Assembly (NCBI RefSeq): GCF_008704655.1
Contig: NZ_CP023688.1
Location: 6,826,001 to 6,890,000, forward strand
DNA length: 64,000 bases
Direction: 5' to 3'
Source: Streptomyces rimosus
Lineage (GTDB): Bacteria; Actinomycetota; Actinomycetes; Streptomycetales; Streptomycetaceae
Of this stretch, positions 6,305-23,448 are shown in pieces. The translations under genes and the position numbers were made by a program. Below the pieces are notes generated by a model. That model was given only the letters and a program-made list of their open reading frames with translations. It was not told the origin of the DNA and made no database searches. How positions within the stretch are numbered: the first letter of the stretch is position 1; each line of letters begins with the position of its first letter.

Positions 6305-6379
6305 GGGTGGCCCCTTTCCGGACGAAGGAGGGAGGTGCGATGAGTGCTTGGCAGGCAGGGGTGTCGCGCCCCAGGAACG

Positions 6380-6409: not shown

Positions 6410-6534
6410 CGCAAGTTGAAGGAAAAACCGCAGGTCGGCACGGGGTGCCAGCCTTTTAGGCACGGGGTGCCAGGTCGCCTGCGGCTCCGAATCGAAGGCG
6501 ATACGGCTGCGGACCTGCGGATTCGGGCCCGTGG

Positions 6535-6740
6535 CGGGTGCCTGGTGCCTGAGTCGTCAGTTGCGGTGCGGGTGCCTGTGGGCCTGAGTCGTCAGACCCG
6601 GGGCGTGTGCCTGGGGCCTGAGTCGTCAGTCCTGGGGCGTGTGCCTGAGGACCTGACTCATCGGACCCGGGGCGTGAGCCTGAGAATCCGACTCATCAGA
6701 CCCGGCGCGTGCGCCTGGGGACCTGACTCGTCAGACCCGT
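6535..6740. repeat. six-copy 35-nt tandem repeat between aceE and its upstream regulator
   Basis: The core CTGAsTCgTCAG recurs with its 'gastcrtcag' part at 6551, 6586, 6620, 6655, 6690 and 6725, spacings of 35, 34, 35, 35 and 35 nt. Between the cores the sequence is GC-rich and similar (acccggggcgtgtgcctgg type). The core is itself a palindrome, CTGAC-tc-GTCAG in the best copies. The last copy supplies the stop codon of the GntR gene. The 6305-6730 interval holds no gene; it contains this array, the aceE promoter and leader. Confidence 0.85.
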
Positions 6741-7354
6741 GGCGCGCAGCTCAGCACATGGGTCTTCAGCAGCTCGCCGATCCGCGGGTCGCGCCGCCGG
6801 AACGCGTCCACGATCTCCTGGTGGTCCCGGGCGTGCGAGCGCGGCTCGGGGCTGAACCAGCGGATGGAGAGCGTGGTCCACACCTCGACGCCCAGCGACT
6901 CCCAGGTGTGCAGCAGGACGGCGTTACGGGCCGCCCGCACGATCTCCCGGTGAAAGGCGACCGTGTGCCGCACCTGCGCCTCGCCGTCGCCGTGCCGGTC
7001 CGCCTCGCACAGCGCCGCCACCTCCCGGTCCAGCGCCGCGGTGTCCTCGGCCAGCCGCCCGGCGGCCAGCTCCGCGGCCACCTGCTCCAGCCCGGCCCGT
7101 ACCGGATAGCTCTCCTTGAGGTCGTCGGCGGTCAGATTCCGTACGCGTACGCCCTTGTTCGGGGCCGACTCGATCAGCTGGAGCGACTCCAGCTCGCGCA
7201 GGGCTTCGCGTACGGGCGTCTGGCTGACCGCCAGCTCGACCGCGATCCGCCGTTCCACGATCCGCTCGCCGGGCTGCCAGCGCCCGCTGACGATCCCCTC
7301 CAGGATGTGCTCGCGGATCTGCTCGCGGAGCGAATGGACGACGGGCGGGGTCAT
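6731..7354 (-). CDS. GntR-family transcriptional regulator, FadR/FCD subfamily
   Basis: This 207-residue protein has an N-terminal GntR winged helix (residues 5-70). The signature runs 'LREQIREHILEGIVSGRWQPGERIVERRIAVELAVSQ', split here as LREQIREHILEGI, PGERIVE and TPVREALRELESLQLIE. An all-helical FCD ligand domain follows; its metal/ligand positions include HREIVRAARN and HQEIVDAFRRRD. FCD regulators bind organic acids such as pyruvate, lactate or acyl-CoA, and PdhR is a functional precedent. The gene lies directly upstream of aceE on the same strand and downstream of the sucB terminator, so it probably controls aceE and perhaps itself. GAAGGAG precedes the ATG at 7354. Its stop codon lies inside the 35-nt repeat array. 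Confidence 0.9.
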   Translation of the reverse strand: MTPPVVHSLREQIREHILEGIVSGRWQPGERIVERRIAVELAVSQTPVREALRELESLQLIESAPNKGVRVRNLTADDLKESYPVRAGLEQVAAELAAGRLAEDTAALDREVAALCEADRHGDGEAQVRHTVAFHREIVRAARNAVLLHTWESLGVEVWTTLSIRWFSPEPRSHARDHQEIVDAFRRRDPRIGELLKTHVLSCAPRV

Positions 7355-7455
7355 GACGTGCTCCTTCAGAGCGTGCGGCAGGTGGCGGCCGGGTCCCCGG
7401 GCCGACGGGCGGTACGGGGCCACCACGGGAGGGCCATTATCCGTGGAACGAAAAC

Positions 7456-7501
7456 GGGTCGGCCCCGGCTCGTACGAACTTGTACGAACCGGGGCCGACC
7501 C
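7456..7501 (-). terminator. sucB: intrinsic terminator after sucB
   Basis: An inverted repeat of about 20 bp with a single mismatch and a tetraloop (aact, 7477-7480) is followed on the minus strand by CGTTTTCG. It starts 28 nt after the sucB stop. It is the most classical rho-independent terminator in the window and separates sucB from the GntR gene. Confidence 0.9.
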
Positions 7502-7528
7502 TGCACACCTACGGGGTGGCTGCCGTGC

Positions 7529-9358: not shown

Positions 9359-9411
9359 GGTTTCTCTTGCTCCTTACAGAAAGTGCGGATGTGGTCGCGC
9401 CCGGACCGGGA

Positions 9412-10800
9412 TCAGTCGTGGGAGTGCAGAGGCTTGCCGGCCAGGGCCAGGTGGGCCTCGCCGAGCGCCTCGTTCTGCGTCGGGTGCGCGTGGATGAGCT
9501 GCGCAACCTCGGCCGGCAGGGCCTCCCAGTTGTAGACCAGCTGGGCCTCGCCGACCTGCTCGCCCATGCGGTCACCGACCATGTGGACGCCGACCACGGC
9601 ACCGTCCTTGACCTGGACGAGCTTGATCTCGCCCGCGGTCTTGAGGATCTTGCTCTTGCCGTTGCCCGCGAGGTTGTACTTCAGAGCCACGACCTTGTCG
9701 GCACCGTACAGCTCCTTGGCCTTGGCCTCGGTGATGCCCACCGAGGCGACCTCGGGGTGGCAGTACGTCACGCGCGGCACGCCGTCGTAGTCGATCGGCA
9801 CGGTCTTCAGACCGGCCAGTCGCTCCGCCACCAGGATGCCCTCGGCGAAGCCGACGTGCGCGAGCTGGAGGGTGGGGACGAGGTCACCGACGGCCGAGAT
9901 GGTCGGCACGTTGGTCTGCATGTACTCGTCGACCAGGACGTAGCCGCGGTCCATGGCGACCCCGGCCTCCTCGTAGCCCAGGCCCTGGGAGACCGGGCCG
10001 CGGCCGATGGCGACCAGCAGCACCTCGGCCTCGAAGGACTTGCCGTCGGCCAGTGTGACCTTGACGCCGTCCTGGGTGTACTCGGCCTTGTCGAAGAAGG
10101 TGCCGAGGTTGAACTTGATGCCGCGCTTGCGGAAGGCCCGCTCCAGCAGCTTGGAGCTGTTCTCGTCCTCGACCGGGACGAGGTGCTTGAGGCCCTCGAC
10201 GATGGTCACGTCGGTGCCGAAGGACTTCCACGCGGAGGCGAACTCGACGCCGATGACGCCGCCGCCCAGCACGATCGCGGACTTCGGCACGCGGTCCAGC
10301 TTCAGCGCGTGGTCCGAGGAGATGATCCGGTCGCCGTCGATGTTCAGGCCCGGCAGGGACTTCGGCACGGAGCCGGTCGCCAGCAGGATGTGGCGGCCCT
10401 GGACGCGCTGGCCGTTGACGTCGACGGAGGTCGGGGAGGACAGCCGGCCCTCACCCTCGATGTAGGTGACCTTGCGCGAGGCGACCAGGCCCTGCAGACC
10501 CTTGTACAGGCCCGAGATGACCTCGTCCTTGTACTTGTGGACGCCCTCGATGTCGATGCCCTCGAAGGAGGCCTTGACACCGAACTGCGCGGCCTCGCGA
10601 GCCTGGTCCGCGATCTCGCCGGCGTGCAGCAGGGCCTTGGTGGGGATGCAGCCGTTGTGCAGGCAGGTGCCGCCGAGCTTGTTCTTCTCGATCAGGGCGA
10701 CGTCCAGGCCCAGCTGCGCCCCGCGCAGGGCAGCGGCGTAACCGCCGCTACCGCCTCCGAGGATCACTAGGTCGAAAACGGTGCTGGCGTCGTTCGCCAC
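9412..10800 (-). CDS. lpdA: dihydrolipoyl dehydrogenase (E3)
   Basis: This 462-residue flavoprotein reoxidises dihydrolipoamide on E2 and passes the electrons to NAD+. It starts with the FAD-binding GGGSGGYAAA motif. The redox-active disulfide follows in GGTCLHNGCIPTK (Cys46 and Cys51), then an NAD-binding GGGVIGVEFAS. The second FAD contact is ISAVGDLV. The catalytic base pair lies near the C-terminus in HAHPTQNEALGEAH. The length is exactly that of typical bacterial LpdA when the GTG at 10800 is used. GGAGG seven nt upstream supports that start, although the frame is open further upstream. It lies upstream of sucB on the same strand, so lpdA-sucB is probably one transcript ending at 7456. 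Confidence 0.96.
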   Translation of the reverse strand: MANDASTVFDLVILGGGSGGYAAALRGAQLGLDVALIEKNKLGGTCLHNGCIPTKALLHAGEIADQAREAAQFGVKASFEGIDIEGVHKYKDEVISGLYKGLQGLVASRKVTYIEGEGRLSSPTSVDVNGQRVQGRHILLATGSVPKSLPGLNIDGDRIISSDHALKLDRVPKSAIVLGGGVIGVEFASAWKSFGTDVTIVEGLKHLVPVEDENSSKLLERAFRKRGIKFNLGTFFDKAEYTQDGVKVTLADGKSFEAEVLLVAIGRGPVSQGLGYEEAGVAMDRGYVLVDEYMQTNVPTISAVGDLVPTLQLAHVGFAEGILVAERLAGLKTVPIDYDGVPRVTYCHPEVASVGITEAKAKELYGADKVVALKYNLAGNGKSKILKTAGEIKLVQVKDGAVVGVHMVGDRMGEQVGEAQLVYNWEALPAEVAQLIHAHPTQNEALGEAHLALAGKPLHSHD

Positions 10801-11146: not shown

Positions 11147-12691
11147 TCAGCCGAGATCGCCCTCGGCGGTGCGCTCGGCCAGGCCCACCAGGGTGCGGAC
11201 CGCGGAGCCGGTGCCGCCCTTGGGGGTGTAGCCGAACGGCGCGCTCTCGTGGAAGGCCGGACCGGCGATGTCCAGGTGTGCCCACGGGATGCCCTCGCCG
11301 ACGAACTCCTGGAGGAAGACACCGGCCAGCAGGCCGCCGCCGGCCCGCTCACCGACGTTCTTCAGGTCGGCGATCGGGGAGTCCAGGCCCTTGCGCAGCT
11401 CGGACGGCATCGGCATCGGCCAGGACGGCTCGCCGGCCTCCTCCGCGATCTCGTGGAGGCTCGCCCGGAAGGCGTCGTCGTTGGCCATGATCCCGAAGGT
11501 GCGGTTGCCCAGCGCCAGCACCATGGCGCCGGTCAGCGTGGCGACGTCCACGATCGCGTCCGGCTGCTCCTCGGAGGCGCGGGTGAGCGCGTCGGCCAGC
11601 ACGAGCCGGCCCTCGGCGTCGGTGTTCAGCACCTCGACGGTCTTGCCGCTGTACATGGTCAGCACGTCGCCGGGGCGCAGCGCGGCGCCGGACGGCATGT
11701 TCTCGGCCAGCGCCAGCCAGCCGGTGACGTTGACCCGCAGGCCCAGCCGGGCGGCGGCCACGACCGCGGCGAACACCGCGGCGGCGCCGCTCATGTCGCA
11801 CTTCATGGTCTCGTTGTGGCCGGCCGGCTTCAGGGAGATGCCGCCCGAGTCGTAGGTGATGCCCTTGCCGACGAGCGCCAGGGTCTTTTCGGCCTTCGCG
11901 TGGGTGTAGCCGATCCGCACCAGGCGCGGCGGGTTCTCCGAGCCCTGGCCGACGCCCATCAGGCCGCCGTAGCCGCCCTTCTTCAGGGCCCGCTCGTCCA
12001 GCACCTCGACCTTGAGGCCGAACTCCTTCGCGGCGGCCTGGGCCTGCGCGGCGAAGGACTTCGGGGTGAGGTCGTTGGAGGGGGTGTTGATCAGGTCGCG
12101 GGCGCGGTTGACCTCGGCGGCCAGCGTCTGGGCCCGCTCGACGGCGGCCTTGTGGGCCTTGTCGCGCGGCTTGCCGCCGAGGATCGCCACCTCGGCGAGC
12201 GGCGCCGACTTGTCGTCGGCCTTCTTGGCGCCGCGGGCGGCCTTCGCGTCGCCGTTGCTGCGGTACGCGCTGAAGGCGTACGCGCCGAGCAGCGCGCCCT
12301 CGCCGATCGCCGCGACGGCCTCGGCGTCCTCCGCGGGCAGCGCGAACGCGGCCTTCTTGCTGCCGGCCAGGGCGCGGGCGGCGGAGCCGGCGGCGCGGCG
12401 CAGCGCCTCGGCGTCGTAGTCCGCGTCCTCGGCCGGGGCCTTGCCCAGACCGACCGCCAGCACGACCGCGGCCTTCAGACCGGAGGCGGCGGGCAGCTTG
12501 GTCACCTCGCCCTCGGCGCCGCTCGCGCCGAGGGTCTCCAGTACGGCGGCGAGCTTGCCGTCGAACGCCTTGTCCACGGCCTCGGCGCCGGGGGCCAGCA
12601 CGGCGCCCTTGGCGCCCTTGGCCAGGCCGACGACGACGGCGTCCGCACGCAACGTCGCGGCGGAGGATGTGCTGAGGGTCAGTGCAGTCAC
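11147..12691 (-). CDS. pepA: leucyl aminopeptidase, M17 family
   Basis: This 514-residue protein has the two-domain structure of M17 aminopeptidases. The N-terminal half (residues 1-170) is the variable macro-like domain. The C-terminal half holds the dizinc active site: VGKGITYDSGGISLKP (Lys and Asp ligands), MKCDMSGAAAVFA, and the family signature NTDAEGRLVLADAL. The enzyme removes N-terminal residues from peptides as a cytoplasmic homohexamer. The ATG at 12691 gives the expected length and the usual 'MTALTLS' actinobacterial opening. The gene is monocistronic, with its own terminator, and divergent from the exopolysaccharide locus at 13055. Confidence 0.95.
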   Translation of the reverse strand: MTALTLSTSSAATLRADAVVVGLAKGAKGAVLAPGAEAVDKAFDGKLAAVLETLGASGAEGEVTKLPAASGLKAAVVLAVGLGKAPAEDADYDAEALRRAAGSAARALAGSKKAAFALPAEDAEAVAAIGEGALLGAYAFSAYRSNGDAKAARGAKKADDKSAPLAEVAILGGKPRDKAHKAAVERAQTLAAEVNRARDLINTPSNDLTPKSFAAQAQAAAKEFGLKVEVLDERALKKGGYGGLMGVGQGSENPPRLVRIGYTHAKAEKTLALVGKGITYDSGGISLKPAGHNETMKCDMSGAAAVFAAVVAAARLGLRVNVTGWLALAENMPSGAALRPGDVLTMYSGKTVEVLNTDAEGRLVLADALTRASEEQPDAIVDVATLTGAMVLALGNRTFGIMANDDAFRASLHEIAEEAGEPSWPMPMPSELRKGLDSPIADLKNVGERAGGGLLAGVFLQEFVGEGIPWAHLDIAGPAFHESAPFGYTPKGGTGSAVRTLVGLAERTAEGDLG

Positions 12692-13054
12692 GGTGATGAA
12701 AGTCCTGTTCCGTCCGGGAATCCGTTCGCGCCCAGGGCGCTGCTGCGGCCGAGCCTACGCTTGGGCCCGCCGCCCGTAACCGCTTGATGCCGTATCGGCC
12801 GTCCTGTCACATCTTCACCACCCGCACCGCTGGCCCCAACGCGCCTCACCAGCCGGGAAGTTGCCGGTTTCACGGGAAACATGGCCGGTCCGGCGTGCCG
12901 GGTTCCGCCGTCAATTCCCGTGCGACGAATGAGACGTGCGTCACAGTCGTGGTGACTGTGGGATACAGGCCCGCGAACCTTCGCATGATGAGCACGAGCC
13001 TGCCCGGTGTGCTTCCGGAAGCAGGGGGACTTCCGGGGGGAAGGGACTGTGCCC
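12692..13054. promoter_or_regulatory. divergent regulatory region between pepA and the exopolysaccharide locus
   Basis: This 363-nt region has no gene. It holds an inverted repeat CACAGTC-n5-GACTGTG at 12942-12960 (alternatively GTCAC-n7-GTGAC at 12940-12956), about 95 nt before the deacetylase start. A perfect 12-bp palindrome GCTTCCGGAAGC lies at 13011-13022, with a second cttccgg at 13030-13036 close to the ribosome-binding site. These are candidate control elements for the locus downstream; no binder can be assigned. Confidence 0.4.
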
Positions 13055-15145
13055 ATGGGCAGCAACAGCAAGTCGTCCATCAGACCGGCCAGGATTCTCA
13101 CGGCGCTCGCCACGGCGTTCGTCACGGCCTTGCCGCTGGCGGTGGCGACCACGCCCGCGCAGGCGGCGCCGGCCGCCGCCGACGTGGTGCCCCGTATCGA
13201 CCTGCGGGTGCTGGTGATCACCGACGGCGGTGACACCACCGACGCCATCGCGAGCGAACTGCGCAGCCAGGGCATCCCGTACACGACCGTCAACCTGTCG
13301 GCCTCCGGCCGGCCGGTGATCAACGAGGCGTTCCTCAGCGACACCGTGGACGGCCGGCCGCGCGCCAAGTTCCAGGGCGTGGTGATGTCGAACGACAACC
13401 CCTTCGGCAGTGCCGACTCGCCGGAGCTGGCGGCCCTGAAGACGTACGAGACCACGTACAAGATCCCGCAGGTGGACGCCTACACCTACGCGCGGCCCGA
13501 CGTCGGCCTGCGCACGCCCGACGAGGGCGGTTACGCCGGTGTGCTGGACGGCTTCGCCACCCGTACCACCGACGCGGGCAAGACCGGGCCCTTCGGCTAC
13601 CTCAAGGGCGCGGTGCCCTTCGAGGACGCCGACCCGAAGGTCTCCGAGTCGTACGGCTACATCGCCCAGCCGGTCGCCAACCCGCCCGCGGGCGCCACGT
13701 TCACGACGTACCTGGACGCGGCCGTGCCGGGCGGCCCGGCGCGCGGCTCGCTGATCGGCGAGTACGCCCACGACGGCCGCAGGGAACTGGTCGTCACCTT
13801 CGCGCAGAATCGTTACCAGCAGCAGTTCCGGCTGCTCGCCCGGGGCATCGTGGACTGGCTGACGCAGGGCGTCCACCTGGGCCAGAGCCGCAACTACTTC
13901 TCCGTACAGGTCGACGACATCTTCGCGCCGGACTCCCGCTGGGACACCAAGAACAACTGCACCCCCGGGGACTTCGACTGCCCGCCGGGTGTGCCGGACA
14001 CCGCGCAGATCCGGATGACCGAGGCGGACGCCGCGTACGCCGCCCAGTGGCAGCGCGACCGCGGCTACCAGCTCGACCTGGTCTACAACGCGGGCTCCGG
14101 CGAGGAGTGGAAGGCGGAACACGGCGGCGTGGACGCGCTGGCCGACCGGCTGCTGGCCGACAAGTCCGCGTACCGCTGGGTCAACCACACCTACACCCAC
14201 CCCTTCCTGGGCTGTGTGCAGGACACCTCGACCGTGCCCTGGCGCTGCGCCAAGGACTGGTTCGGCCAGACCCGGTGGGTCAGCCGCAGCGAGATCACCG
14301 CGGAGATCGAGAAGAACCACGCCTGGGGTGTGGCCAAGGGCCTGGACGTGGACGCCTCGGAGCTGGTCACCGGCGAGCACTCCGGCCTGAAGTCCACGCC
14401 GCAGCAGCCGCAGGACAACCCCAACCTCGCCCCGGCGCTCACCGCCACCGGCGTCAAGTGGCTCGCCAGCGACAACTCGCGGGAATCCGCGCAGCGGCAG
14501 GCCGGCCCGGCGCTGACCGTGCCGCGCTACCCGATGAACGTGTTCTACAACGCGGCGACGGCGGCCGAGGAGACCGACGAGTACAACTGGATCTACACCA
14601 GCAAGGCCGACGGCGGCAGCGGGATCTGCGAGACCGACCCCAACTCCACCTGTCTGCCCGCGCCCCTGCCGACCTCCACCGGCTACACCTCGTACATCGT
14701 CCCGCTGGAGGCGCGCACCGCTCTCGGGCATGCTCTGGCCAACGACCCGCGCCCGCACTACATCCACCAGTCGAACCTCGCCGAGGACCGGATCGCCTAT
14801 CCGGTTCTGGACAAAGTTCTGGCCGACTATCGCGGGTTCTTCGCCGCCGACACGCCGGTCGTCAACCAGCGCCACCGGGACATCGGACGCGAGATGCAGC
14901 AGCGTGCGGCCTGGCAGAAGGCCCTGGACGCCGGTTCGGTGACGGCATACAGAATTGGCGACACTGTCACCATCACGTCGCCGGCCGGGGTGGCCGCTGC
15001 GGCTACGATGCCCGACGGAACCAGAACACAACTCCCGAATGGGACCGTGGATTTCGGCACTCGCTATGCCGGACGGGTATCGGAGTGGGCCACAGCGCAG
15101 TCGCCCGGAGCGGCCATCACGCTCAAGCTTCCGACGACCGCCTGA
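13055..15145 (+). CDS. secreted polysaccharide deacetylase, CE18/Agd3-PelA type
   Basis: This 696-residue exported protein has a Sec signal peptide ending TPAQA/AP (about residue 36). A first module follows (about 45-270: DLRVLVITDGGDTTDAIASEL) resembling the alpha/beta N-terminal region of PelA and Agd3. The deacetylase domain is next: VDD at 286-288 supplies the metal and catalytic Asp, and HTYTH at 378-382 the two metal His. Aromatic motifs such as NWIYTSK follow. In Agd3 and PelA the CE18 domain removes acetyl groups from GalNAc-rich polymers. The ATG at 13055 has AAGGG 9 nt upstream. The gene heads a plus-strand locus with a GT4 glycosyltransferase and GH135 and GH114 hydrolases, which supports a role in an amino-sugar exopolysaccharide. 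Family assignment is from motifs and context, not from alignment. Confidence 0.82.
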   Translation: MGSNSKSSIRPARILTALATAFVTALPLAVATTPAQAAPAAADVVPRIDLRVLVITDGGDTTDAIASELRSQGIPYTTVNLSASGRPVINEAFLSDTVDGRPRAKFQGVVMSNDNPFGSADSPELAALKTYETTYKIPQVDAYTYARPDVGLRTPDEGGYAGVLDGFATRTTDAGKTGPFGYLKGAVPFEDADPKVSESYGYIAQPVANPPAGATFTTYLDAAVPGGPARGSLIGEYAHDGRRELVVTFAQNRYQQQFRLLARGIVDWLTQGVHLGQSRNYFSVQVDDIFAPDSRWDTKNNCTPGDFDCPPGVPDTAQIRMTEADAAYAAQWQRDRGYQLDLVYNAGSGEEWKAEHGGVDALADRLLADKSAYRWVNHTYTHPFLGCVQDTSTVPWRCAKDWFGQTRWVSRSEITAEIEKNHAWGVAKGLDVDASELVTGEHSGLKSTPQQPQDNPNLAPALTATGVKWLASDNSRESAQRQAGPALTVPRYPMNVFYNAATAAEETDEYNWIYTSKADGGSGICETDPNSTCLPAPLPTSTGYTSYIVPLEARTALGHALANDPRPHYIHQSNLAEDRIAYPVLDKVLADYRGFFAADTPVVNQRHRDIGREMQQRAAWQKALDAGSVTAYRIGDTVTITSPAGVAAAATMPDGTRTQLPNGTVDFGTRYAGRVSEWATAQSPGAAITLKLPTTA

Positions 15146-15680
15146 CGCGTTCCCGGCACCGCCAGGCCCGCTTGCCGGGCCCGGCGGGCCCGGACCGGGC
15201 GGCCGGCCGTCGCGTACCCGCACCGCGGCGATCACCCGGCCCGCACGTACACACACAGCACCACCCCATGACATCGCACCACGGCCACGCGCGGCGCGCG
15301 CCCGCACCGCAGCCCGCACGCGGCCGTACCCGCAGCACCGCACCACCCCGCACCAACGACACCGCACAGCTTCCACCGCACAGACTCATCGCGCCCGTAC
15401 CGACGCACCGGTGCAGCAGGGCGCACCCGTCTTCAGGCACCGGCACGGACGCGTGGGTACGGACGCGTCCGTACCGGTGCCCCTCGGGCGTGCCCGCACA
15501 CCGGCACCCGCTCGCCGCACCGGCGTGCCCGCATACGTCCCCGCAGTCCGCGCCCGCACGCCGCACCTGGCCGGCACGGCCGCCGGCCGCACCACCGCGC
15601 CCGCACGGTGCCCGCAACACCCGCGCCCGCGCGCCCCACACCGCTCCACCCAGCACCTATGTTCCCGGGGGGGATTTGCC
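15146..15680. other. C/A-rich non-coding spacer with a 20-nt perfect palindrome
   Basis: This 535-nt stretch lies between the deacetylase and pelF-like genes. The plus strand is dominated by cgcacc/gcaccg-like words. No frame has a ribosome-binding site or family features. Near its middle, 15456-15475 reads GGTACGGACGCGTCCGTACC, a perfect 20-nt palindrome inside a longer weak inverted repeat (caccgg ... ccggtg). It may hold a second promoter or operator for the downstream genes. Confidence 0.5.
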
Positions 15681-17261
15681 ATGAACGCAACCCTGTACGA
15701 GGTCGGCAGCCGAAGTCCGCGGCCGGACGACGCGCCACAGCCCGGCCGGCATGTCACCATGCTGACCGAGGGCACCTATCCGCACGTCCACGGTGGCGTC
15801 TCCACCTGGTGCGACCAGCTCGTACGGGGCATGCCGGAAGTCCGCTTCAACGTCATCGCGCTGACCGGCAGCGGCCGGGAACCGGTGACCTGGGACCTGC
15901 CCGCCAACGTCTACGCGCAGTCCTCCGTGCCGATGTGGGGCCCGCAGCCGGGCCGCCGGACCGCCGGGCTCCGGGGGCGCGAACGGCGTCGCTTCGTCGA
16001 CACCTACGAGCGCTTCCTGCTCTCCATGCTCGACCCGCAGTCCTGCACCGACTTCGGCACCGAGCTGTACGCGCTGGCCGCGCTCGCCCGCGAGGGGCGG
16101 CTCAGTGCCGCGCTGCGCACCGAGACGGCGCTGCGTTCCCTGATGTGGATCTGGACCCTGCCGCACGTCGCCACCCGCGCCGCCGAACCCACCGTCCACG
16201 ACGCGCTGACCGCCACCGACCTGCTGGAGCACGCGCTGCGCCCGCTGGCCGTACGGATACCGCGGGACAGCGTCGCGCACGCGGTCAGCAACGGGCTGGC
16301 CTGCCTGCCCGCGCTCGCCGCCAAGGAGTTCGACGAGGTGCCGTTCCTGCTCACCGAGCACGGCATCTACTTGCGGGAACGTTACCTCGGCTACCGCCGC
16401 GACGCGCAGCGCTGGCCCGTCAAGGCCCTGATGCTCGGCTTCTACCGGCAGCTGACGATCGAGAGCTACCGGGCCGCCGACCTGGTCACGCCGTGCAACA
16501 AGTACAACACCCGCTGGGAGGAGCGCGGCGGCACCCCGCCCGAGAAGATACGGACCGTCTACAACGGCGTCGATGTGCAGCTCTTCCCGCACGCCGAACA
16601 GGAGCCGGACGACCCGACGCTGAGCTGGGCCGGGCGGATCGACCCGATCAAGGACCTGGAAACCCTCATCCGCGCCTACGCGCTGTGCCGCGCCGAGGTA
16701 CCCAACCTGCGGCTGCGGCTGTTCGGCGGGGTGCCGGCCGGCGGCGAGGCGTACAAGACCCGCTGCGAGAAGCTGGCCGCCTCGCTCGGTGTGACCGACG
16801 GGCTCAGCTGGGAGGGGCGCATCGACGACGTGGCCCGCGCCTACGCCGCCGGCAGCATCGTCATGCTCTCCAGCATCTCCGAGGGCTTCCCGTTCAGCCT
16901 GATAGAGGCCATGTCCTGCGGCCGTTCGACGGTCTCGACCGATGTCGGCGGGGTACGCGAGGCGGTCGGTGACACCGGACTCGTCGTACCGCCCCGGGAA
17001 CCGGAGGCCATGGCCAAGGCCACCCTCGAACTCCTCAAGGGCGGCTGGGAGAAGCGCGCCGAACTCGGCAGCCGGGCCCGGCAGCGGGTGATCGACCAGT
17101 TCACGCTGCGCCGCTCGGTCGACGGCTTCCGCACCATCTACCGCGAACTCGACGGCGCGGACCGGCAGGCGCAGGAGACGCAGGAATCCCGGGAGGAGTG
17201 GACCCTCCAGCTGCGCGGCCCGTGGCGCGCCCCGCTCGCCGCTGACGGGGGCGGCTGGTGA
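15681..17261 (+). CDS. pelF: GT4-family glycosyltransferase, PelF-like (DUF3492)
   Basis: This 526-residue cytoplasmic protein has no signal peptide. Its N-terminal half begins with VTMLTEGTYPHVHGGVSTWCDQLVRGMPEV, seen as MLTEGTYP and GGVSTWCD; these are the hallmarks of the DUF3492/PelF N-domain. The region around LLTEHGIYLRER and RTVYNGVDVQLF is also PelF-like. The C-terminal GT-B domain carries WAGRIDPIKDLETLI and the E-x7-E nucleotide-sugar motif EGFPFSLIE (Glu401, Glu409). PelF polymerises a GalNAc/GlcNAc-containing chain from UDP-sugars in Pel, and the fungal GT4 of the GAG cluster is its relative. The ATG at 15681 follows a G-rich ribosome-binding site. The stop overlaps the next start (GTGA), so the transporter-like gene is translationally coupled. 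Confidence 0.92.
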   Translation: MNATLYEVGSRSPRPDDAPQPGRHVTMLTEGTYPHVHGGVSTWCDQLVRGMPEVRFNVIALTGSGREPVTWDLPANVYAQSSVPMWGPQPGRRTAGLRGRERRRFVDTYERFLLSMLDPQSCTDFGTELYALAALAREGRLSAALRTETALRSLMWIWTLPHVATRAAEPTVHDALTATDLLEHALRPLAVRIPRDSVAHAVSNGLACLPALAAKEFDEVPFLLTEHGIYLRERYLGYRRDAQRWPVKALMLGFYRQLTIESYRAADLVTPCNKYNTRWEERGGTPPEKIRTVYNGVDVQLFPHAEQEPDDPTLSWAGRIDPIKDLETLIRAYALCRAEVPNLRLRLFGGVPAGGEAYKTRCEKLAASLGVTDGLSWEGRIDDVARAYAAGSIVMLSSISEGFPFSLIEAMSCGRSTVSTDVGGVREAVGDTGLVVPPREPEAMAKATLELLKGGWEKRAELGSRARQRVIDQFTLRRSVDGFRTIYRELDGADRQAQETQESREEWTLQLRGPWRAPLAADGGGW

Positions 17262-18721
17262 GCGGACCCCTTTGGCTCGTACCGGGGGAGGGCAAGGACC
17301 GTACGGACGACCTGCCGGACGTGCCGCGTCCGCAGCGCCCGCAGTGGGCCGCGCCCGACCCGGTCGACGAACTCGCCGGCCGCATGGGCGATCTGATCGC
17401 CGCCGCCGTCCACCCCGACGAGATCGCCGCGATCATCGAGTCCGACGGCATGAGCGACGACCAGATCAAGCTCACCTACGGGCGCGAGAACTCCTTCGCC
17501 CTCGCCGAGGAACTGTACGAGCGCGTGCCGCGCCGCTACCCGGAGCCGGACCGCGTCCTCACCGACCCCTGGCGGGTCAGCCTGCTCGGCTGCCTGCTGC
17601 GCGCCCTGGTCTTCGCCCTGCCCGGCCTCGCCTACGTCGTCGGCTCCCACCTGCTGTCCGGGCCGCCGGACTCCCGCGGGCTGCCCGCCGGCACCCTCCC
17701 GCTGCTGGCGGGCGCCCTGGCCGGCTGGGTCTGGAACCAGGCGCTCGCCCACCGCGCGTACTCCTGGCTGGGCCTGGGCGAACGGTGGCCCGCCGCCCGC
17801 TCGCTGGCCGTCGGCGCGCCGCTGGGCGCGCTGTTCGGGGCGGGCGTCGCCTGGGCGGTCGGCGTCGCCGACGCGGACGCCCCCGGCGCGGTGGCCTTCG
17901 CCGCCGGCCAGGCGGTCTACCTCGGCGCCGCGACCGCGCTGCTCGTCTTCGGGCAGGAACGGTGGCTGCTGTGCGCGCTGGCCCCGGTCGGGCTCGGCGC
18001 CGCGCTGATGGCGGTGTACGTGCCGCCGGACCCCGTACGCGAAGGGCTGCTCGTGCTGTCGCTCGGCGCGGCTCTCGCGCTGGCCGCCGTCACCGTGTGG
18101 CGCTGCCGCAGCGAGCCCCGGCACGACGGGCCCGCGCCGCGCGCGGTGGCCTCCGTGCCGTACGGGCTCTTCGGCCTGGCCATCGGCGTCCTGGTGCTGC
18201 ACACGGCGCTCGGCGACGTCCTGCGGTACGGGGCGCACGCCGAGGTCGCGGCGCCCGCTGCGGTGGCCCTCACGCTCAGCATGGGCCCGGCCGAATGGCT
18301 GCTGTACCGCTACCGCAGCCGGGCGGTGGCCGGGCTGCGCGCCAGCACCACCTTCGCCGCGTTCTGGCGCGCCACCTCCGGCGCGCTGGCCCGCTGCCTG
18401 GCCTGCTACCTCGCGGTCCTGGCGCTGCTCGGCGGCGTCGGGAGCGCGGTGTGGCGGCAGGGACCGCCGATGGACTGGGCGCACGCGCTGGGGCTGTTGT
18501 GCCTGGGCACGGTGCTGTGGACGGCGCTGCTGCTCCAGGCGTTCGGAGCGGTGCCGGTCGCGGCGGCGGTGTGCGGCCTGGCCGCGATCGCTCAAACGGT
18601 TCTCCTGGTGGCCGGGCCACTGTCTCCGGCCGTCGCGCAGCTGATCGTCTGCGGGGTGGCCGCGCTCGTCCTGGGCGGGCTGGTCTCGGTGCTGCTGGGG
18701 AGGGCCACGGCTCATCGCTGA
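17258..18721 (+). CDS. 12-TM integral membrane protein, probable PelG-like export/synthase partner
   Basis: This 487-residue protein has a cytoplasmic N-terminal region (1-105), rich in acidic residues and containing ESDGMSDDQIK and FALAEELYERVPRR. About twelve hydrophobic helices follow, from LLGCLLRALVFALPGLAYVV to the last, VAALVLGGLVSVLLG. The size and helix count match PelG (a Wzx-like membrane protein that partners PelF) and the membrane half of the fungal GAG GT4, but I see no motif that proves homology. The GTG start overlaps the pelF stop by 4 nt, so the two are coupled. Expected role: holding PelF at the membrane and moving the polymer out. Confidence 0.7.
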   Translation: MSGPLWLVPGEGKDRTDDLPDVPRPQRPQWAAPDPVDELAGRMGDLIAAAVHPDEIAAIIESDGMSDDQIKLTYGRENSFALAEELYERVPRRYPEPDRVLTDPWRVSLLGCLLRALVFALPGLAYVVGSHLLSGPPDSRGLPAGTLPLLAGALAGWVWNQALAHRAYSWLGLGERWPAARSLAVGAPLGALFGAGVAWAVGVADADAPGAVAFAAGQAVYLGAATALLVFGQERWLLCALAPVGLGAALMAVYVPPDPVREGLLVLSLGAALALAAVTVWRCRSEPRHDGPAPRAVASVPYGLFGLAIGVLVLHTALGDVLRYGAHAEVAAPAAVALTLSMGPAEWLLYRYRSRAVAGLRASTTFAAFWRATSGALARCLACYLAVLALLGGVGSAVWRQGPPMDWAHALGLLCLGTVLWTALLLQAFGAVPVAAAVCGLAAIAQTVLLVAGPLSPAVAQLIVCGVAALVLGGLVSVLLGRATAHR

Positions 18722-19230
18722 GGAGGCGACAGCCGCTCGACGCTCGTACGGCGCGCCCGCACGTCCGGTACGGTGCCCGGTCCCCGCATCGCGGACCGAC
18801 GGGCGGGCGGTCCCGTCCGGGGCTTCGTCCCCGGCCGGTAACCGGGGCCGGATCCGCGTGCCGTGGCCCGACGGAGGGGCGCTCCCATACGGACGGCCCC
18901 TCGCTGGTTCCGCGCGCCGTGGTCCGACGGAGGGGCGCTCCCATACGGACGGCCCCTCGCTGGTTCCGCGCGCCGTGGCCGACGGACGGGCGCTCCCGTA
19001 CGGTCCCGCCCCCCGCCGGGTCCGCGCACCGCGGCCCGACGGGCGGGTGCCTCGGTCCGGGCCCCGCCCCTGGCCGGAATCCGGCGCCGGTCCCGCGCAC
19101 CGCGGCCCGATGGGCAGGTGCCCCGGCCCGGGCCCCGCCCCTGGCCGGTAACCGACGCCGGATCCGCGTGCCGTGGCCGGTACTCGTATCCTCAGCATCT
19201 CGCCCCATTTCCGACAGGAGCCCACGAACC
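18722..19230. repeat. degenerate tandem repeat array between the membrane protein and GH135 genes
   Basis: This 509-nt interval has no gene. It is filled by about seven degenerate copies of a 55-72 nt unit whose core reads CCGyGGCCCGACGG. The CGACGG mark falls near 18797, 18869, 18925, 18980, 19037 and (as cgatgg) 19108, with a last partial copy near 19171. The copies starting at 18869 and 18925 are nearly identical over 56 nt. Several long frames run through it only because the repeat keeps them open. Confidence 0.8.
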
Positions 19231-19926
19231 ATGACCCGGCCGTCCTCGCGACAGCCCCGTCCGCCCTCCCGCCAGCTGCTGGTCCCCCTCTACGAGCACC
19301 CGGCCGAGCGCCCGGACGCCTGGCGGCGGCTCATCGAGGCGGCGCCCGACCTCTACGGCGTGGTGCTCAACCCGGCCAGCGGCCCCGGCACCGCCCCCGA
19401 CCGGGACTTCGCCGAGGTGGCCCGGCGGTTACGGGAGGCGGGCGTACGCATCCTCGGCTACACCGACACCGACTACGGGCGCCGTCCGCACGCGGCCGTC
19501 GCCCAGGACCTGCTGCGGCACCGCGACTGGTACGGGGCCGACGGCGCGTTCTTCGACCAGGCCGCCGCCGACGCCGGTCTCCTCGCGCACTACAGCCGGC
19601 TGACGGTTGCCGCGCGCGCCGCCGGGGCCGGCACCGTCGTCCTCAACCACGGTCTCCACCCGCACCCCCGCTACCTCGACTTCGCCGACCTCCTGGTCAC
19701 CTTCGAGAACAGCTGGGCGGCGTACGAGAACGCCGAGATCCCGGAGTGGACCGCCCACCACCCGCCCGAACGGTTCTGCCACCTCATCCACGGCCTCCCC
19801 GAGACCTGCGCGGAGGCCGCCGCCGAGCTGGCCCGGCAGCGCGGGGCCGCCGTGCACTGCGCCGTCCCCGGCACTGCGCCGCACCCCTGGGACGCCCTTC
19901 CCCCCTTCCTGGAGACCCCCCGATGA
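19231..19926 (+). CDS. spherulin-4 family (GH135/Sph3-like) protein
   Basis: This 231-residue protein is a single TIM-barrel domain of the spherulation-specific family 4. It begins LLVPLYEHPA with the usual 'W-x-x-x-x-x-A' that follows. Typical strands are YGVVLNPASGPG, RILGYTDTDYGRR, YGADGAFFDQ (acidic residues at the active site) and VVLNHGLHPHPRYL. The A. fumigatus homologue Sph3 is an endo-alpha-1,4-N-acetylgalactosaminidase (GH135) needed for galactosaminogalactan. Unlike Sph3 there is no signal peptide or membrane anchor visible; the N-terminus (MTRPSSRQPRPPSRQ) is short and charged. The ATG at 19231 follows ACAGGAG. The stop overlaps the GH114 start (ATGA), so the two hydrolases are translated together. 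Confidence 0.88.
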   Translation: MTRPSSRQPRPPSRQLLVPLYEHPAERPDAWRRLIEAAPDLYGVVLNPASGPGTAPDRDFAEVARRLREAGVRILGYTDTDYGRRPHAAVAQDLLRHRDWYGADGAFFDQAAADAGLLAHYSRLTVAARAAGAGTVVLNHGLHPHPRYLDFADLLVTFENSWAAYENAEIPEWTAHHPPERFCHLIHGLPETCAEAAAELARQRGAAVHCAVPGTAPHPWDALPPFLETPR

Positions 19927-20792
19927 CGTCCCCGCGCTTCCGCAAGAGACTGCTGCTCCTCCTCGGCTCGCTCCTGCTGGTCACCACCGCCTGCTCCCAG
20001 ATACCGGACGGCCCGGACGGCAAGCCCAGCCACGGCGCGAGCCCCGGCACCGCAAGCCCGAGCAGCCCCGGCGGCGGCACGGGTACGCACAAGCCCATCT
20101 GGCGCCCCGAGCCCGGCACCGACTGGCAGTGGCAGCTGACCGGAAAGCTCGACCTGTCCGTCGACGCGCCCGTCTACGACATCGACGGCTTCAACCACAA
20201 GGCCGCCACGGTCGCCGACCTCCACAAGCGCGGCCGCAAGGCCATCTGCTACATCAGCGTCGGCGCCTACGAGGACTTCCGCCCGGACGCGCGCCGCTTC
20301 CCCAAGAACGTCATCGGCGAGGAGAACGGCTGGAAGGGCGAGCGCTGGCTCGACATCCGCCGCCTGGACGTGCTGCGTCCCCTGATGGCGAAGCGTTTCG
20401 ACATGTGCCGCGACAAGGGCTTCGACGCCGTCGAGCCGGACAACGTCGACGGCTACAAGAACAAGACCGGCTTCGACCTGACCGCCGACGACCAGCTCGC
20501 CTTCAACCGCATGATCGCCAAACTGGCCCACGACCGCGGCATGTCCGTCGGCCTCAAGAACGACCTCGACCAGATCCCCCAGCTCGTCGGCGACTTCGAC
20601 TTCGCCGTCAACGAGCAGTGCGCCGAGTACGACGAGTGCGCGGCCATGACCCCCTTCATCAAGGCCGACAAGGCCGTCTTCCACGTCGAATACGAACTCC
20701 CGGCCTCCCGCTTCTGCCGCACCTCCAAGCGCCTGGGACTCAGCTCCATGCAGAAGCGGCTGCATTTGGACGCTTGGCGGGAGAGCTGCTGA
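19923..20792 (+). CDS. GH114 endo-alpha-1,4-polygalactosaminidase-like lipoprotein
   Basis: This 289-residue protein has a signal peptide with a lipobox-like LLLVTTAC (Cys about 24). A Ser/Gly/Pro linker and one GH114 domain (about 60-289) follow. The family pattern is clear: the 'WQWQLTGKLD' opening, 'VYDIDGFN', 'AICYISVGAYEDFRPD', 'FDAVEPDNVDGY' (Glu171) and 'FAVNEQCAEY' (Glu231). GH114 is also the N-terminal hydrolase domain of PelA and the catalytic domain of Ega3 in the GAG cluster. It should trim or release de-N-acetylated galactosamine-rich polymer at the cell surface. Its ATG overlaps the GH135 stop by 4 nt. It is the last gene of the locus; the next gene is convergent. Confidence 0.93.
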   Translation: MTSPRFRKRLLLLLGSLLLVTTACSQIPDGPDGKPSHGASPGTASPSSPGGGTGTHKPIWRPEPGTDWQWQLTGKLDLSVDAPVYDIDGFNHKAATVADLHKRGRKAICYISVGAYEDFRPDARRFPKNVIGEENGWKGERWLDIRRLDVLRPLMAKRFDMCRDKGFDAVEPDNVDGYKNKTGFDLTADDQLAFNRMIAKLAHDRGMSVGLKNDLDQIPQLVGDFDFAVNEQCAEYDECAAMTPFIKADKAVFHVEYELPASRFCRTSKRLGLSSMQKRLHLDAWRESC

Positions 20793-20812
20793 GGCCGTGG
20801 GAGGCGGAGCAT

Positions 20813-21010
20813 CTAGAGAGGCCGGTACGCACTCCCGTCCGTCCCCTCCGGTAGCGCCCGGCTCAAAGTGACGTATACGGGACCGTACGGCGTCTCCAAC
20901 CGCCACGCCTCCCACTGGTCGAGCTCCTGCGCGCAGTAGCGCCGCAGGAGCTCGCGAAACTGCTCCAGCTCGGTGTCGGACATGCGCTGGGGTTGGTTGT
21001 CGTGCGCCAC
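20813..21010 (-). CDS. small conserved hypothetical protein (65 aa)
   Basis: I do not recognise a family. This 65-residue protein is acidic and helix-rich in its first half (MSDTELEQFRELLRRY, then QELDQWEAWRLE). It ends with a short beta-type segment, YGPVYVTLSR. The GTG at 21010 has TAAGTT six nt upstream, the TAnnnT pattern of a leaderless promoter, which supports it over the internal ATG at 20983. It lies 37 nt after cobS on the same strand. Codon use is ordinary for the window. Confidence 0.65.
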   Translation of the reverse strand: MAHDNQPQRMSDTELEQFRELLRRYCAQELDQWEAWRLETPYGPVYVTLSRALPEGTDGSAYRPL

Positions 21011-21047
21011 GGGGGCAACTTAGGCGTAGGTGGGCCTGGTCCCGGCA

Positions 21048-21860
21048 CTACCCCACCGCCAGCACCACCAGAACAACCACCCCCGTCACCTCCGCGATCG
21101 CGCCGAAGACGTCGCCGGTGATGCCGCCGAAGCGGTGGCGGCAGCGGCGTAGGGTCGCTTCTCCTGTGGCGAGGGCGAGGAGGGTGGCCAGGGTCGCGTG
21201 GAGGGCTTCGTGCGGGCCGTGGAGGGCGCCGGTGGCTGCGGCGAGGGCGGTTACCAGTGTCGCCGCTGCTGCCGCCCAGCGCAGCGGTACCGTGCCGGCC
21301 ACCGCTGCCCCCAGGCCCTCGGGGCGGGCTGCCGGGACGCCCTTGCGGGCGGTGAGGGTGAGGGCGCAGCGGGCGGTGACGGCGGAGAGGGTGGCGGCTG
21401 CCGCGCCGTGGGTCCAGCTCTGTTCGTAGAGGTGGGACAGGGCGGCCACCTGGGCCAGCAGCGTGAACAGCAGCGTGATGACGCCGAACGGGCCGATGTC
21501 GGACTGCTTCATGATGCGCAGCGCGTCGTCGGCGGGCTTGCCGCTGCCCAGGCCGTCGGCGGTGTCGGCGAGTCCGTCGAGGTGCAGGCCGCGGGTGAGG
21601 GCGGCGGGGACGGCGGCCGTGGCGACGGCGGCGAGGAGGGGGCCGCTGCCGAGGAGGGTGAGCAGGGTGCCGAGGGCCGCTGCCGCCAGGCCGATCACCA
21701 GGCCCGCGACCGGTGCGCACAGCATGCCGCCGCGTGCCGCCGCCCGGTCCCAGCGGCGCAGCCGTACCGGCAGCACGGTCAGCGTGCCGAAGGCGAAACG
21801 CATGGCGTCCCCGAGGGTGGGGGAAGGCGGGGGGCCGGAGGAGGTGGCGGCGTCGTTCAC
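21048..21860 (-). CDS. cobS: adenosylcobinamide-GDP ribazoletransferase
   Basis: This 270-residue integral membrane protein joins adenosylcobinamide-GDP to alpha-ribazole, the last assembly step of adenosylcobalamin. It shows the CobS signatures: the opening 'F-x-T-x-L-P-V' (FGTLTVLPVRLR), the acidic substrate loop HLDGLADTADGLG, 'MKQSDIGPFGV', and RFGGITGDVFGA near the C-terminus. About six hydrophobic helices are visible. The start is GTG at 21860. TAGCCT six nt upstream suggests a leaderless transcript and there is no ribosome-binding site. cobT and cobU are on the same strand at 25.3 and 27.4 kb, but a plus-strand gene breaks the unit. Confidence 0.94.
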   Translation of the reverse strand: MNDAATSSGPPPSPTLGDAMRFAFGTLTVLPVRLRRWDRAAARGGMLCAPVAGLVIGLAAAALGTLLTLLGSGPLLAAVATAAVPAALTRGLHLDGLADTADGLGSGKPADDALRIMKQSDIGPFGVITLLFTLLAQVAALSHLYEQSWTHGAAAATLSAVTARCALTLTARKGVPAARPEGLGAAVAGTVPLRWAAAAATLVTALAAATGALHGPHEALHATLATLLALATGEATLRRCRHRFGGITGDVFGAIAEVTGVVVLVVLAVG

Positions 21861-21937
21861 CGCGGCAGGCTAACCCGGCCGCCGCGGACCGTACGGCGTA
21901 AATTGCCCCTATACGCGACAAACGGGGAGTGCGTGGC

Positions 21938-22675
21938 ATGGGTCACTGGTGGTTCCGCAACATCATCGAGCCGGGGAAGCTCCCCCTGCTGCTCGCGCTC
22001 GTCTCCTTCGTGCTGACGTTCGCCGTGACCCGGGTGATCACCCGGCTGATCCGGGCCGGGAAGGGCCCCTTCCGCAACATCTCGCCGGGGGGCCTGCACA
22101 TCCACCACGTCGTGCCCGGTGTGGTGCTGATGGTCATCGGCGGGTTCACCGCGCTGGCCGGCGGGCGCCACGGGTACGGGGCCGGGATAGCGGCGGTGCT
22201 GTTCGGGATGGGCGTCGGGCTGGTGCTGGACGAGTTCGCGCTGATCCTGCACCTGGACGACGTGTACTGGAGCGAGCAGGGCACCAAGAGCGTGGAGATC
22301 GTGATCGTCACGGCCGCGCTGGTGGCGCTGATCCTGGGCGGCGCGCTGCCGTTCGGGGTGAACGAGCTGGACCCCGAGGAGTTCCACAACCGGTTCCGGG
22401 TGGTGCGGACCGTCGGCATCAACTTCCTGTTCGCGCTGGTGGCGCTCTTCAAGGGGAAGGGGAGGCTGGCGGTGATCGGGGTGTTCGTACCGTTCGTCGC
22501 GCTGTTCGGGGCGGTGCGGCTGGCGCGGCCGAACTCACCCTGGGCGAAGCGGTTCTACCGGCGGCGCCCCAAGGCCCGCGCCAAGGCGAAGGTCCGCGCC
22601 TTCCGGCACGACCGGCGCTGGAACGGGCTGCGCCGCCGGGTCAACCACGTCATCGGCGGGGCGCCGAACTCCTGA
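21938..22675 (+). CDS. integral membrane protein with HIHH and DEF/HLDD motifs, unknown function
   Basis: This 245-residue protein has about five or six hydrophobic helices and a basic cytoplasmic tail (RRRPKARAKAKVR). Helix 2 is preceded by GGLHIHHVVPGVV. Helix 4 contains GLVLDEFALILHLDDVYW. His, Asp and Glu residues clustered in and beside membrane helices look like a metal-binding or catalytic site. I cannot name the family with confidence. The ATG at 21938 is preferred over the GTG at 21929, because GGGGAG lies 8 nt before it. It is the only plus-strand gene among the cobalamin/MprF genes. Its stop codon lies in a 17-nt tandem repeat. Confidence 0.75.
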   Translation: MGHWWFRNIIEPGKLPLLLALVSFVLTFAVTRVITRLIRAGKGPFRNISPGGLHIHHVVPGVVLMVIGGFTALAGGRHGYGAGIAAVLFGMGVGLVLDEFALILHLDDVYWSEQGTKSVEIVIVTAALVALILGGALPFGVNELDPEEFHNRFRVVRTVGINFLFALVALFKGKGRLAVIGVFVPFVALFGAVRLARPNSPWAKRFYRRRPKARAKAKVRAFRHDRRWNGLRRRVNHVIGGAPNS

Positions 22676-22752: not shown

Positions 22753-23448
22753 TCAGGCGCCGGCTCTGGCCCGCTGCGTCCCGCGCGGTTTGCGCCGGTG
22801 CAGCACCTCCCAGACCCCGCACAGCACCAGCAGCACCACGACGGCGGCGATGTGCTCCCGGCCCGCCAGGTTGTTCTTGATGAACACGATCTCGTAGACC
22901 ATCGACAGCACCACCAGCGCGCAGGTGAACCACGCCCGGTAGACCCAGCACACGAAGATCCCGAGGCCCACCACGGCCGCCGAGGGCCCGGTGTCGTGGA
23001 CGAACGCGTCGGTGGGCGGCAGGCCGATGGGGTTGTCGGGGCCGAGCCAGATGCCGATGCGCGCGTACATCGTCCCGGCCAGCGTGGCCGCGTACGCGAT
23101 CAGCAGCGTCCGGGCCCGGCCCAGGCAGATCTCGCAGATGCCGAAGACGAGCAGGATCTGCGCCAGCGCGCCCCACACCGGCAGGTCCAGGGCGGGCACG
23201 AACAGCGACAGCGGTGTGCGCAGCAGCGCCAGCCACAGATGTTCGTCGGCCTGGACCGAGCCGATGTTCTGGACGAACTGATAGCCCCAGGACTGGTTCT
23301 GGACGATCTGGAAGAGGGAGGTGAGCAGGACGGCGGCGATCGTCATCGGGATCGCCGCCAGTTTCTTGGTACGCAACCCGGACCACAGGGTCCGGAACAG
23401 CAGGCCCCACTCGGCACGCACGGCGCGGCGCAGGACCGGCTCGCTCAT
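22753..23448 (-). CDS. rhomboid-like integral membrane protein
   Basis: This 231-residue protein has about six hydrophobic helices. Helix 4 starts DTGPSAAVVGLG, and the last helix begins REHIAAVVVLLVL. A Ser in a GxS context followed by a helix-borne His is the Ser-His dyad pattern of rhomboid proteases, though GPSAA is not the canonical GASG. The ATG at 23448 overlaps the stop of the MprF-like gene by 4 nt (ATGA). The pair is therefore coupled and probably works at the same membrane. Catalytic activity is an inference from two residues. It could equally be an inactive rhomboid-like protein. Confidence 0.68.
   Translation of the reverse strand: MSEPVLRRAVRAEWGLLFRTLWSGLRTKKLAAIPMTIAAVLLTSLFQIVQNQSWGYQFVQNIGSVQADEHLWLALLRTPLSLFVPALDLPVWGALAQILLVFGICEICLGRARTLLIAYAATLAGTMYARIGIWLGPDNPIGLPPTDAFVHDTGPSAAVVGLGIFVCWVYRAWFTCALVVLSMVYEIVFIKNNLAGREHIAAVVVLLVLCGVWEVLHRRKPRGTQRARAGA

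Follow-up and report, generated by a model that had tools for sequence, protein, structure and literature searches.

Do streptomycetes build a surface polymer akin to the galactosaminogalactan (GAG) of moulds and the Pel polysaccharide of bacteria and, if so, with which machinery? The question is raised by a locus of Streptomyces rimosus, at positions 13055-20792 of a 64,000-nucleotide stretch of contig NZ_CP023688.1 (the whole stretch is called the window below, and lies within a single 9.36 Mb contig), where just five genes, all on the plus strand, stand between pepA and cobS. From their families, models and likeness to characterized systems it is probable, though well short of certain, that the five constitute a module, related to both fungal GAG and bacterial Pel, that makes, exports and processes an exopolymer rich in N-acetylgalactosamine (GalNAc) and de-N-acetylated in part. 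Several lines support this reading: the enzyme families keep their catalytic residues, and three families that process polymers of GalNAc or galactosamine (GalN) stand together; the glycosyltransferase and membrane protein genes are inseparable; the model of the membrane protein draws MOP-type matches; PelF, PelG and Agd3 genes stand in a row at two distant loci (L181 and L182); a GalE is encoded elsewhere in the genome; and both a low-level galactosamine polysaccharide in Streptomyces walls and a secreted endo-galactosaminidase of S. griseus are cited in earlier work (PMC7229062). If the polymer is made, Streptomyces would resemble neighboring moulds in possessing a cationic galactosamine adhesin, with a bearing on hyphal clumping, attachment and wall charge.

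The Five Genes

The first gene (13055-15145) encodes a putative secreted de-N-acetylase of Agd3 type, 696 residues long, with a CBM87, a CE18-like and a C-terminal beta-rich domain; the second (15681-17261), a 526-residue cytoplasmic GT4 glycosyltransferase of PelF type, with DUF3492 and a GT-B C-terminal domain; the third (17258-18721), a 487-residue, 12-helix membrane protein with an N-terminal cytosolic helical domain at about residues 35-95; the fourth (19231-19926), a 231-residue Spherulin-4/GH135 protein; and the fifth (19923-20792), an Ega3-like GH114 endo-galactosaminidase of 289 residues, predicted to be a lipoprotein. Their consecutive order on one strand and the two 4-nt overlaps (17258-17261 between the GT4 and membrane protein genes, 19923-19926 between the GH135 and GH114 genes), both pointed out in an initial annotation made from the sequence alone, are borne out by the coordinates of the open reading frames (ORFs); the first overlap may reflect translational coupling. 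The class proposed in that annotation, GAG- or Pel-like with CE18, PelF-type GT4, GH135 and GH114 members, is supported by profiles and by the deacetylase model. Characterized members of the three processing families act on alpha-1,4-linked GalNAc/GalN polymers (PMC7229062, PMC12054363), and the identities of catalytic residues used below are taken from PMC7229062, PMC12054363 and PMC8546845.

A Divergent Agd3-Type Deacetylase

Is the first protein in fact a CE18 deacetylase, as initially annotated? On its own sequence it does not score as one: Pfam gives 20 bits for CBM87 and 17.3 bits for Agd3_CE, under the cut-off of 27.6, and a PDB search with the single sequence returns no match, both of which count against the assignment. 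Profile and model do support it. Searched against the PDB with E values up to 1 allowed, a profile of 19 sequences has Agd3 (6nwz, E 1.4e-8) as its sole match, and Agd3 is also the top PDB match of the predicted model (mean predicted local distance difference test, pLDDT, 80.9), over the whole length (Foldseek E 2.0e-27, template modeling (TM) score 0.63/0.66). The three-domain architecture with CBM87 is seen in this whole-length match, and the profile aligns the N-terminal domain; among the relatives scanned at E <= 0.01, Agd3_CE was matched in 11/19 and CBM87 in 3/19.

The initially noted VDD (D287 D288) and HTYTH (H378, H382) motifs are both found, together with R491 and H571, so that motifs CM1-CM4 of Agd3 (DD, HxxxH, Arg, His) are all present; the DD and, weakly, the last His are aligned with Agd3 by the profile, and the other correspondences are by motif shape and order, without superposition. 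The two Asp and three His residues (D287 D288 H378 H382 H571) are kept in 115/115 distinct alignable relatives and R491 in 114, the exception being one divergent locus (residues were mapped here and below over 120 loci, with identical copies removed and loci lacking an alignment at E 1e-8 excluded). Judged by profile and model, then, the window deacetylase is a divergent Agd3. By analogy with characterized homologues it would strip acetyl groups from the polymer outside the cell, leaving it cationic and adhesive.

Assignments to CE4 or to a PelA-like enzyme were considered and rejected: Agd3 is the best model match, the human heparan sulfate N-deacetylase NDST1 takes Foldseek ranks 2-6, and PelA of Pseudomonas thermotolerans comes seventh. 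The NDST1 match has E 2.7e-16, and the deacetylase homologue of a distant actinobacterium (L181:8336-10267) weakly matches HSNSD-CE; on these two grounds the Agd3-type and NDST deacetylases look related.

Putative Synthase and Candidate Exporter

The GT4 protein scores 164.5 bits against the NCBIfam PelF model (NF038011, cut-off 100) and 192 bits against DUF3492. Its E-x7-E motif, noted in the initial annotation, is SEGFPFSLIEA (E401/E409), with both Glu residues in 111/111 distinct alignable relatives. PelF polymerizes Pel (PMC13254593), and the window enzyme may polymerize an alpha-linked, GalNAc-rich chain in the cytosol.

The membrane protein matches no Pfam or NCBIfam family above cut-off. 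Its AlphaFold2 model (pLDDT 83.2) has about twelve membrane-length helices by manual count, in line with the 12-helix topology first predicted, behind an N-terminal helical domain. When the model was compared with the PDB by Foldseek, the first 34 of 230 matches were all MATE, MurJ or WzxE proteins of the MOP type (probability 1.00); a search of the PDB with the protein's sequence profile gave a single match at E 0.14. PelG is itself a member of the MOP exporter superfamily (PMC13254593), and comparison with PelG profiles had been suggested initially as a check. By sequence the protein is not PelG: PF16933 (PelG) is unmatched by the window protein and by 18 relatives, and because a profile comparison with eight PelG proteins shows no relation the protein is not classed as PelG. 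It is likely but not proven that the membrane protein has the MOP fold, and this 12-helix protein is probably the exporter of the locus; its slot in the locus is a stronger argument than its fold for considering it a stand-in for PelG, in which place it would move the chain across the membrane. Six residues of the N-terminal domain (V51, A57, E61, G64, G75, F80) are invariant in 15 aligned members, the most distant included, and we propose that this domain docks on the GT4.

The GH135 and GH114 Proteins

The fourth protein is recognizable as a Spherulin-4 (123.9 bits), and it matches fungal Sph3 (5d6t, E 1.4e-18). Loss of its catalytic residues would have spoken against the class; instead Asp and Glu (D109 and E159) are present, and both are kept in 98/98 distinct alignable relatives. 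The catalytic Asp of Sph3 is printed as Asp196 in PMC12054363 and as D166 in PMC8546845, where the D166A protein is called inactive; D166 is taken here as right.

In fungi, according to PMC12054363, Sph3 is bound to the membrane and presumably cleaves the polymer outside, on its way out of the synthase. Could the Streptomyces protein do the same? Among the 36 relatives inspected by eye, 29 have their called start no more than 20 residues ahead of the first barrel strand, and the longer N-termini of the remaining 7 have the appearance of miscalled starts. Since no leader is seen and the N-termini of relatives are short, the GH135 protein is probably cytosolic and meets the polymer inside the cell, and the extracellular role of fungal Sph3 is probably impossible for it. 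At the cytosolic face it might trim or release the nascent, still acetylated chain, or regulate the synthase. This raises a testable question: is the chain edited by a hydrolase while it is still inside the cell? Independently of this, spherulation-specific proteins are mentioned in work on viruses of Atacama desert soil (PMC8269230), which points to possible viral carriage of the family.

The fifth protein scores 293.5 bits for the GH114 family and matches Ega3 (6ojb/6oj1) at E 4.5e-60. Glu motifs were noted in it initially; of its catalytic residues, Glu 231 (NEQC) and Asp 173 (PDN) are both kept in 76/76 distinct alignable relatives. A lipobox-like LLVTTAC, identified by eye, suggests a lipoprotein. 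By analogy with characterized homologues, such a lipid-anchored enzyme would cut de-acetylated stretches of the polymer, for length control or release.

Conservation Across Streptomyces

Relatives of the locus were gathered by way of the deacetylase. Of 536 confirmed stretches the best 80 were used, all from Streptomyces (79) apart from one of Actinacidiphila; 14 of the 80, with less than 7 kb downstream of the deacetylase, were dropped, leaving 66 for presence counts. A further 40 loci were chosen from membrane protein matches, so that in these the presence of the GT4 and membrane protein is partly due to selection; three loci occur in both sets under two names. The closest locus among those listed (L077) matches the window deacetylase at 94%; still closer records may be missing from this set.

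Co-conservation of the five genes, as predicted for Streptomyces, is found: all five occur in 45 of the 66 loci, GH135 in 57 and GH114 in 49, and the GT4 and membrane protein are either both present (63/66) or both absent (3/66). In the membrane-protein-selected set, 39 of 40 loci have the deacetylase, 37 the GH135 and 25 the GH114, and the GT4/membrane protein overlap is exactly 4 nt in 33/40 (a scripted rule assigned the starts in relatives, some of them wrongly; this count and 57/60, 53/121 and 113/121 below were made manually from tables). In 60 of the 66 loci, here called type A and including that of the window, the genes adjoin pepA, and cobS is on the other side in 57 of those 60. The three loci lacking the GT4 (L095, L116, L141) have the deacetylase alone between pepA and cobS, as does the short locus L130, where the other four genes were not found; the genomes of all four have a membrane protein homologue elsewhere. 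The recurrence of gene order and catalytic residues across Streptomyces argues that the five-gene arrangement is not due to chance.

Beyond these loci, strong membrane protein homologues (E <1e-50) are found in 53/121 Streptomyces genomes, and the deacetylase profile matches 13/396 genomes across the phylum. PelG scores above cut-off in 3/296 genomes of the phylum, with no Streptomyces among them; in the genome of the window a single short stretch, outside the locus, matches PelG below threshold (26.1 bits).

Sister and Distant Loci

Six of the 66 loci are elsewhere in the genome than beside pepA (type B; type B loci are L044, L045, L046, L054; L092, L098, L135, L144, L151, L152), and have a nucleotidyltransferase and two short-chain dehydrogenases/reductases (SDRs) downstream of the membrane protein. 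The best NCBIfam match of the nucleotidyltransferase is mannose-1-phosphate guanylyltransferase, far under cut-off; one SDR is LegB-like, at 451.5 bits where the cut-off is 475, and the other RmlD-like. This gene content suggests that type B has a dedicated sugar nucleotide.

A third arrangement (type C) was found by way of the N-terminal domain of the membrane protein, and its complete form was observed in seven genomes (L210-L216): GT4, membrane protein, SDR, a Spherulin-4 protein without a leader and then a ThiF/MoeZ-like gene, with no deacetylase or GH114. One of the seven is the genome of the window (L216, C1:3309000-3326000, 5525-10700 on the minus strand; membrane protein profile match at 3317346). 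The type C Spherulin-4 protein is present in 113/121 Streptomyces genomes (E 5.5e-46 or better). In alignments of 20 sampled proteins (L217-L236) the acid/base Glu is replaced in all 20 and the Asp in 4; the Glu is also replaced in L210-L216, giving 26/26 distinct genomes (G043 is in both sets). On account of this loss the type C protein is a probable pseudo-hydrolase, and a view of type C as a hydrolase locus was rejected.

Might Streptomyces, then, have three related polymer machines? They would share a core of PelF-type GT4, non-PelG exporter of MOP type with an N-terminal docking domain, and cytosolic protein of GH135 fold, the last being an active intracellular endo-galactosaminidase working on the nascent chain in types A and B, and in type C a dead hydrolase retained within the synthase for structure or regulation. 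This wider scheme is tentative, and we would not put it at even chances.

At greater distance, an actinobacterial locus (L181:2993-12139) combines PelF, PelG (475.3 bits) and an Agd3-type deacetylase (85.8 bits); roughly 1 kb upstream lies the gene of a GAF+GGDEF protein, PelD-like by domain make-up only. A Spherulin-4 gene adjoins on the opposite strand, whose product begins with a signal-peptide-like stretch and has a D-E motif, the Glu directly following the catalytic Asp as in Sph3. In a related genome (L182) GT4, PelG and Agd3 genes stand in a row as in L181 (PelG 459 bits in that genome). Operons of this kind form a bridge between the Pel and GAG systems.

Two divergent loci, L178:8224-17572 and L066, have deacetylase, GT4 and membrane protein genes followed by a nucleotidyltransferase and SDRs; L178 additionally has a UDP-sugar dehydrogenase (Pfam), which suggests a variant that contains uronic acid.

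Sugar Supply and Alternative Products

A polymer of this type would require UDP-GalNAc and UDP-Gal, presumably supplied by a GalE encoded elsewhere. The epimerase was noted initially as missing from the locus and likely to be found at a distance, with which the genome agrees: a GalE above cut-off (371.8 vs. 262.3 bits) lies at 5587631-5588575, about 1.25 Mb away, and the nearest PF01370 match (46 bits) is at the left edge of the window, about 13 kb off. A second GalE-like sequence (C1:5805069-5806033, minus strand) is in two pieces in different frames, as would result from a disrupted gene or a misassembly.

Several observations weigh against a GalNAc-rich exopolymer as the product, or against one or other component of the proposed machine. 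There is no epimerase in the locus, and no SDR between pepA and cobS; PelD and PelE are likewise missing from it. The GH114 gene went undetected in 17/66 loci and the GH135 gene in 9/66. Agd3 M666, which is highly conserved, is needed for activity and abolishes adhesion when mutated (PMC7229062); it aligns, weakly, with Y569 of the window protein, and relatives have Tyr (91), Phe (23) or Thr (1) at this position (n = 115), never Met. In the GH135 protein the catalytic Asp is followed by Gln (87) or Arg (11) in all relatives (n = 98), where Sph3 has Glu; unlike fungal Sph3, the window protein also shows no signal peptide or hydrophobic leader, as judged by eye with no predictor run. The MOP matches of the membrane protein model are weak (best E 1.3e-3, TM 0.37-0.49 among the first 34), and hhalign gives a probability of at most 0.1% against the eight PelG proteins, from alignments of 8-19 rows and with no positive control, which is not a strong negative.

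Finally, type B has a nucleotidyltransferase and two SDRs, so that a different sugar may be used in some of the machines. Extended to the window, this becomes the first alternative: the same machine might make a partly de-N-acetylated polymer of some other amino or deoxy sugar, the processing enzymes having followed. The sugar-nucleotide genes inserted in type B, with their LegB-like SDR, and the UDP-sugar dehydrogenase added in L178 are in its favor, as is the lack of any sugar-nucleotide gene at the window locus itself. The latter is however of type A, without the type B genes, and its GH114 and GH135 proteins keep the catalytic residues of families with characterized members that cut GalN and GalNAc polymers, the former being close to Ega3; for the window, another sugar is unlikely.

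Somewhat less probable again is a wall glycopolymer made in the manner of Wzx systems, in which the GT4 would build a lipid-linked unit, a MOP-like flippase would turn it over, and the product would be anchored to the wall instead of being shed as an exopolysaccharide. The MOP matches do include the flippases WzxE and MurJ, the GH114 protein looks membrane-anchored and the GH135 protein cytosolic; but family scans recognize no polymerase, ligase or initiating transferase among the five genes, the GT4 is of the type that polymerizes Pel (PMC13254593), and in L181 the slot of the membrane protein is filled by PelG. The weakest alternative, very improbable in our estimation, is a scavenging or antagonism locus targeting the GAG or Pel that fungi and competing bacteria make: the secreted deacetylase and GH114 lipoprotein could degrade such polymers, and Streptomyces may well live beside GAG-making fungi, but a cytosolic PelF-type GT4 and a membrane protein are inseparable members of the locus (63/66), the GH135 protein has no signal peptide, and none of the five genes has the look of a sugar importer or catabolic gene.

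Relation to Known Systems

How new is such a locus? It is not new in kind, since Bamford et al. (2020; PMC7229062) reported bacterial agd3 operons of such make-up: Agd3 homologues occur in 45 bacterial species, and for 30 of the 35 in their tree agd3 lies within or close to an operon. Each of these encodes a cytoplasmic glycosyltransferase together with a multi-spanning membrane protein; GH114 is a consistent companion, and Spherulin-4 is present in some of the Actinobacteria. The window locus resembles these operons in all five components. The available text of that report mentions no membrane protein fold, missing signal peptide or sister loci, and the genus may be in its species list. In the literature searched (subscription journals mostly lie outside it, and the supplementary species lists of PMC7229062 were not covered) no work was found that deals with the Streptomyces locus, the exporter fold or type C; new here are the probable non-PelG exporter with a MOP-like model, the apparently leaderless GH135 and the sister types B and C.

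In comparison with the GAG cluster of Aspergillus fumigatus (uge3, gtb3, agd3, ega3, sph3), the window has counterparts of Agd3, Ega3, Sph3 and the GT4 synthase with its membrane part. It differs in lacking an epimerase, in having the GT4 and membrane part as separate genes, in a GH114 that is a predicted lipoprotein and in a GH135 with no signal peptide seen. A bacterial origin of the fungal cluster by transfer has already been proposed (PMC7229062), and, if the polymer is made, loci like this one would be a bacterial reservoir and possible source of that cluster.

The Pel operons (P. aeruginosa pel and the Gram-positive pelDEADAFG; PMC7112168, PMC13254593) are similar in their PelF-type GT4, 12-helix exporter-like protein and extracellular three-domain deacetylase. 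The window exporter, however, is not PelG by sequence, and PelB, PelC, PelD and PelE are not in the locus: as initially noted, these families are unmatched by the five genes, the search for PelD not extending to the rest of the genome. The deacetylase is CE18-like, not of CE21, under which PaPelA is listed (PMC13254593), or of CE26, as in PelADA; and GH135 and GH114 replace the GH166 hydrolase of PelA (PMC12054363), which had been mistaken for a GH114 domain in the initial annotation. The L181/L182 operons share with the window the association of PelF, an Agd3-type deacetylase and Spherulin-4, and differ from it by their true PelG and, in L181, by the GAF+GGDEF protein and the signal-peptide-like start of Spherulin-4.

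Spacers and Neighboring Genes

The spacer between the deacetylase and GT4 genes (15146-15680, 535 nt) is longer than in 38 of the 39 relatives measured, for which the median is 77. That between the membrane protein and GH135 genes (18722-19230, 509 nt) contains a GC-rich tandem array at 18847-19179, ahead of the GH135 gene, with units of about 56-71 nt. A long ORF at 17272-19926 was rejected as a single protein: it is the GH135 frame extended back through the repeat spacer and the membrane protein gene, which is read in another frame. An Rfam scan of 12500-22000 gave no match.

The flanking genes, conserved in type A and considered to be outside the system, are the leucyl aminopeptidase gene pepA on the left (11147-12691, minus strand; Peptidase_M17, 412.6 bits) and cobS on the right (21048-21860, minus strand; CobS, 158.5 bits). 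Near the locus is also a gene of the lysyl-phosphatidylglycerol synthase type (23445-25211, minus strand; LPG_synthase_C, 354.5 bits), another modifier of surface charge, which is found beside many type A loci as well. Elsewhere in the window lies a tRNA-Ala predicted by ARAGORN (58916-58998, minus strand); its anticodon, AGC, is unusual for bacteria, and the prediction may be false.

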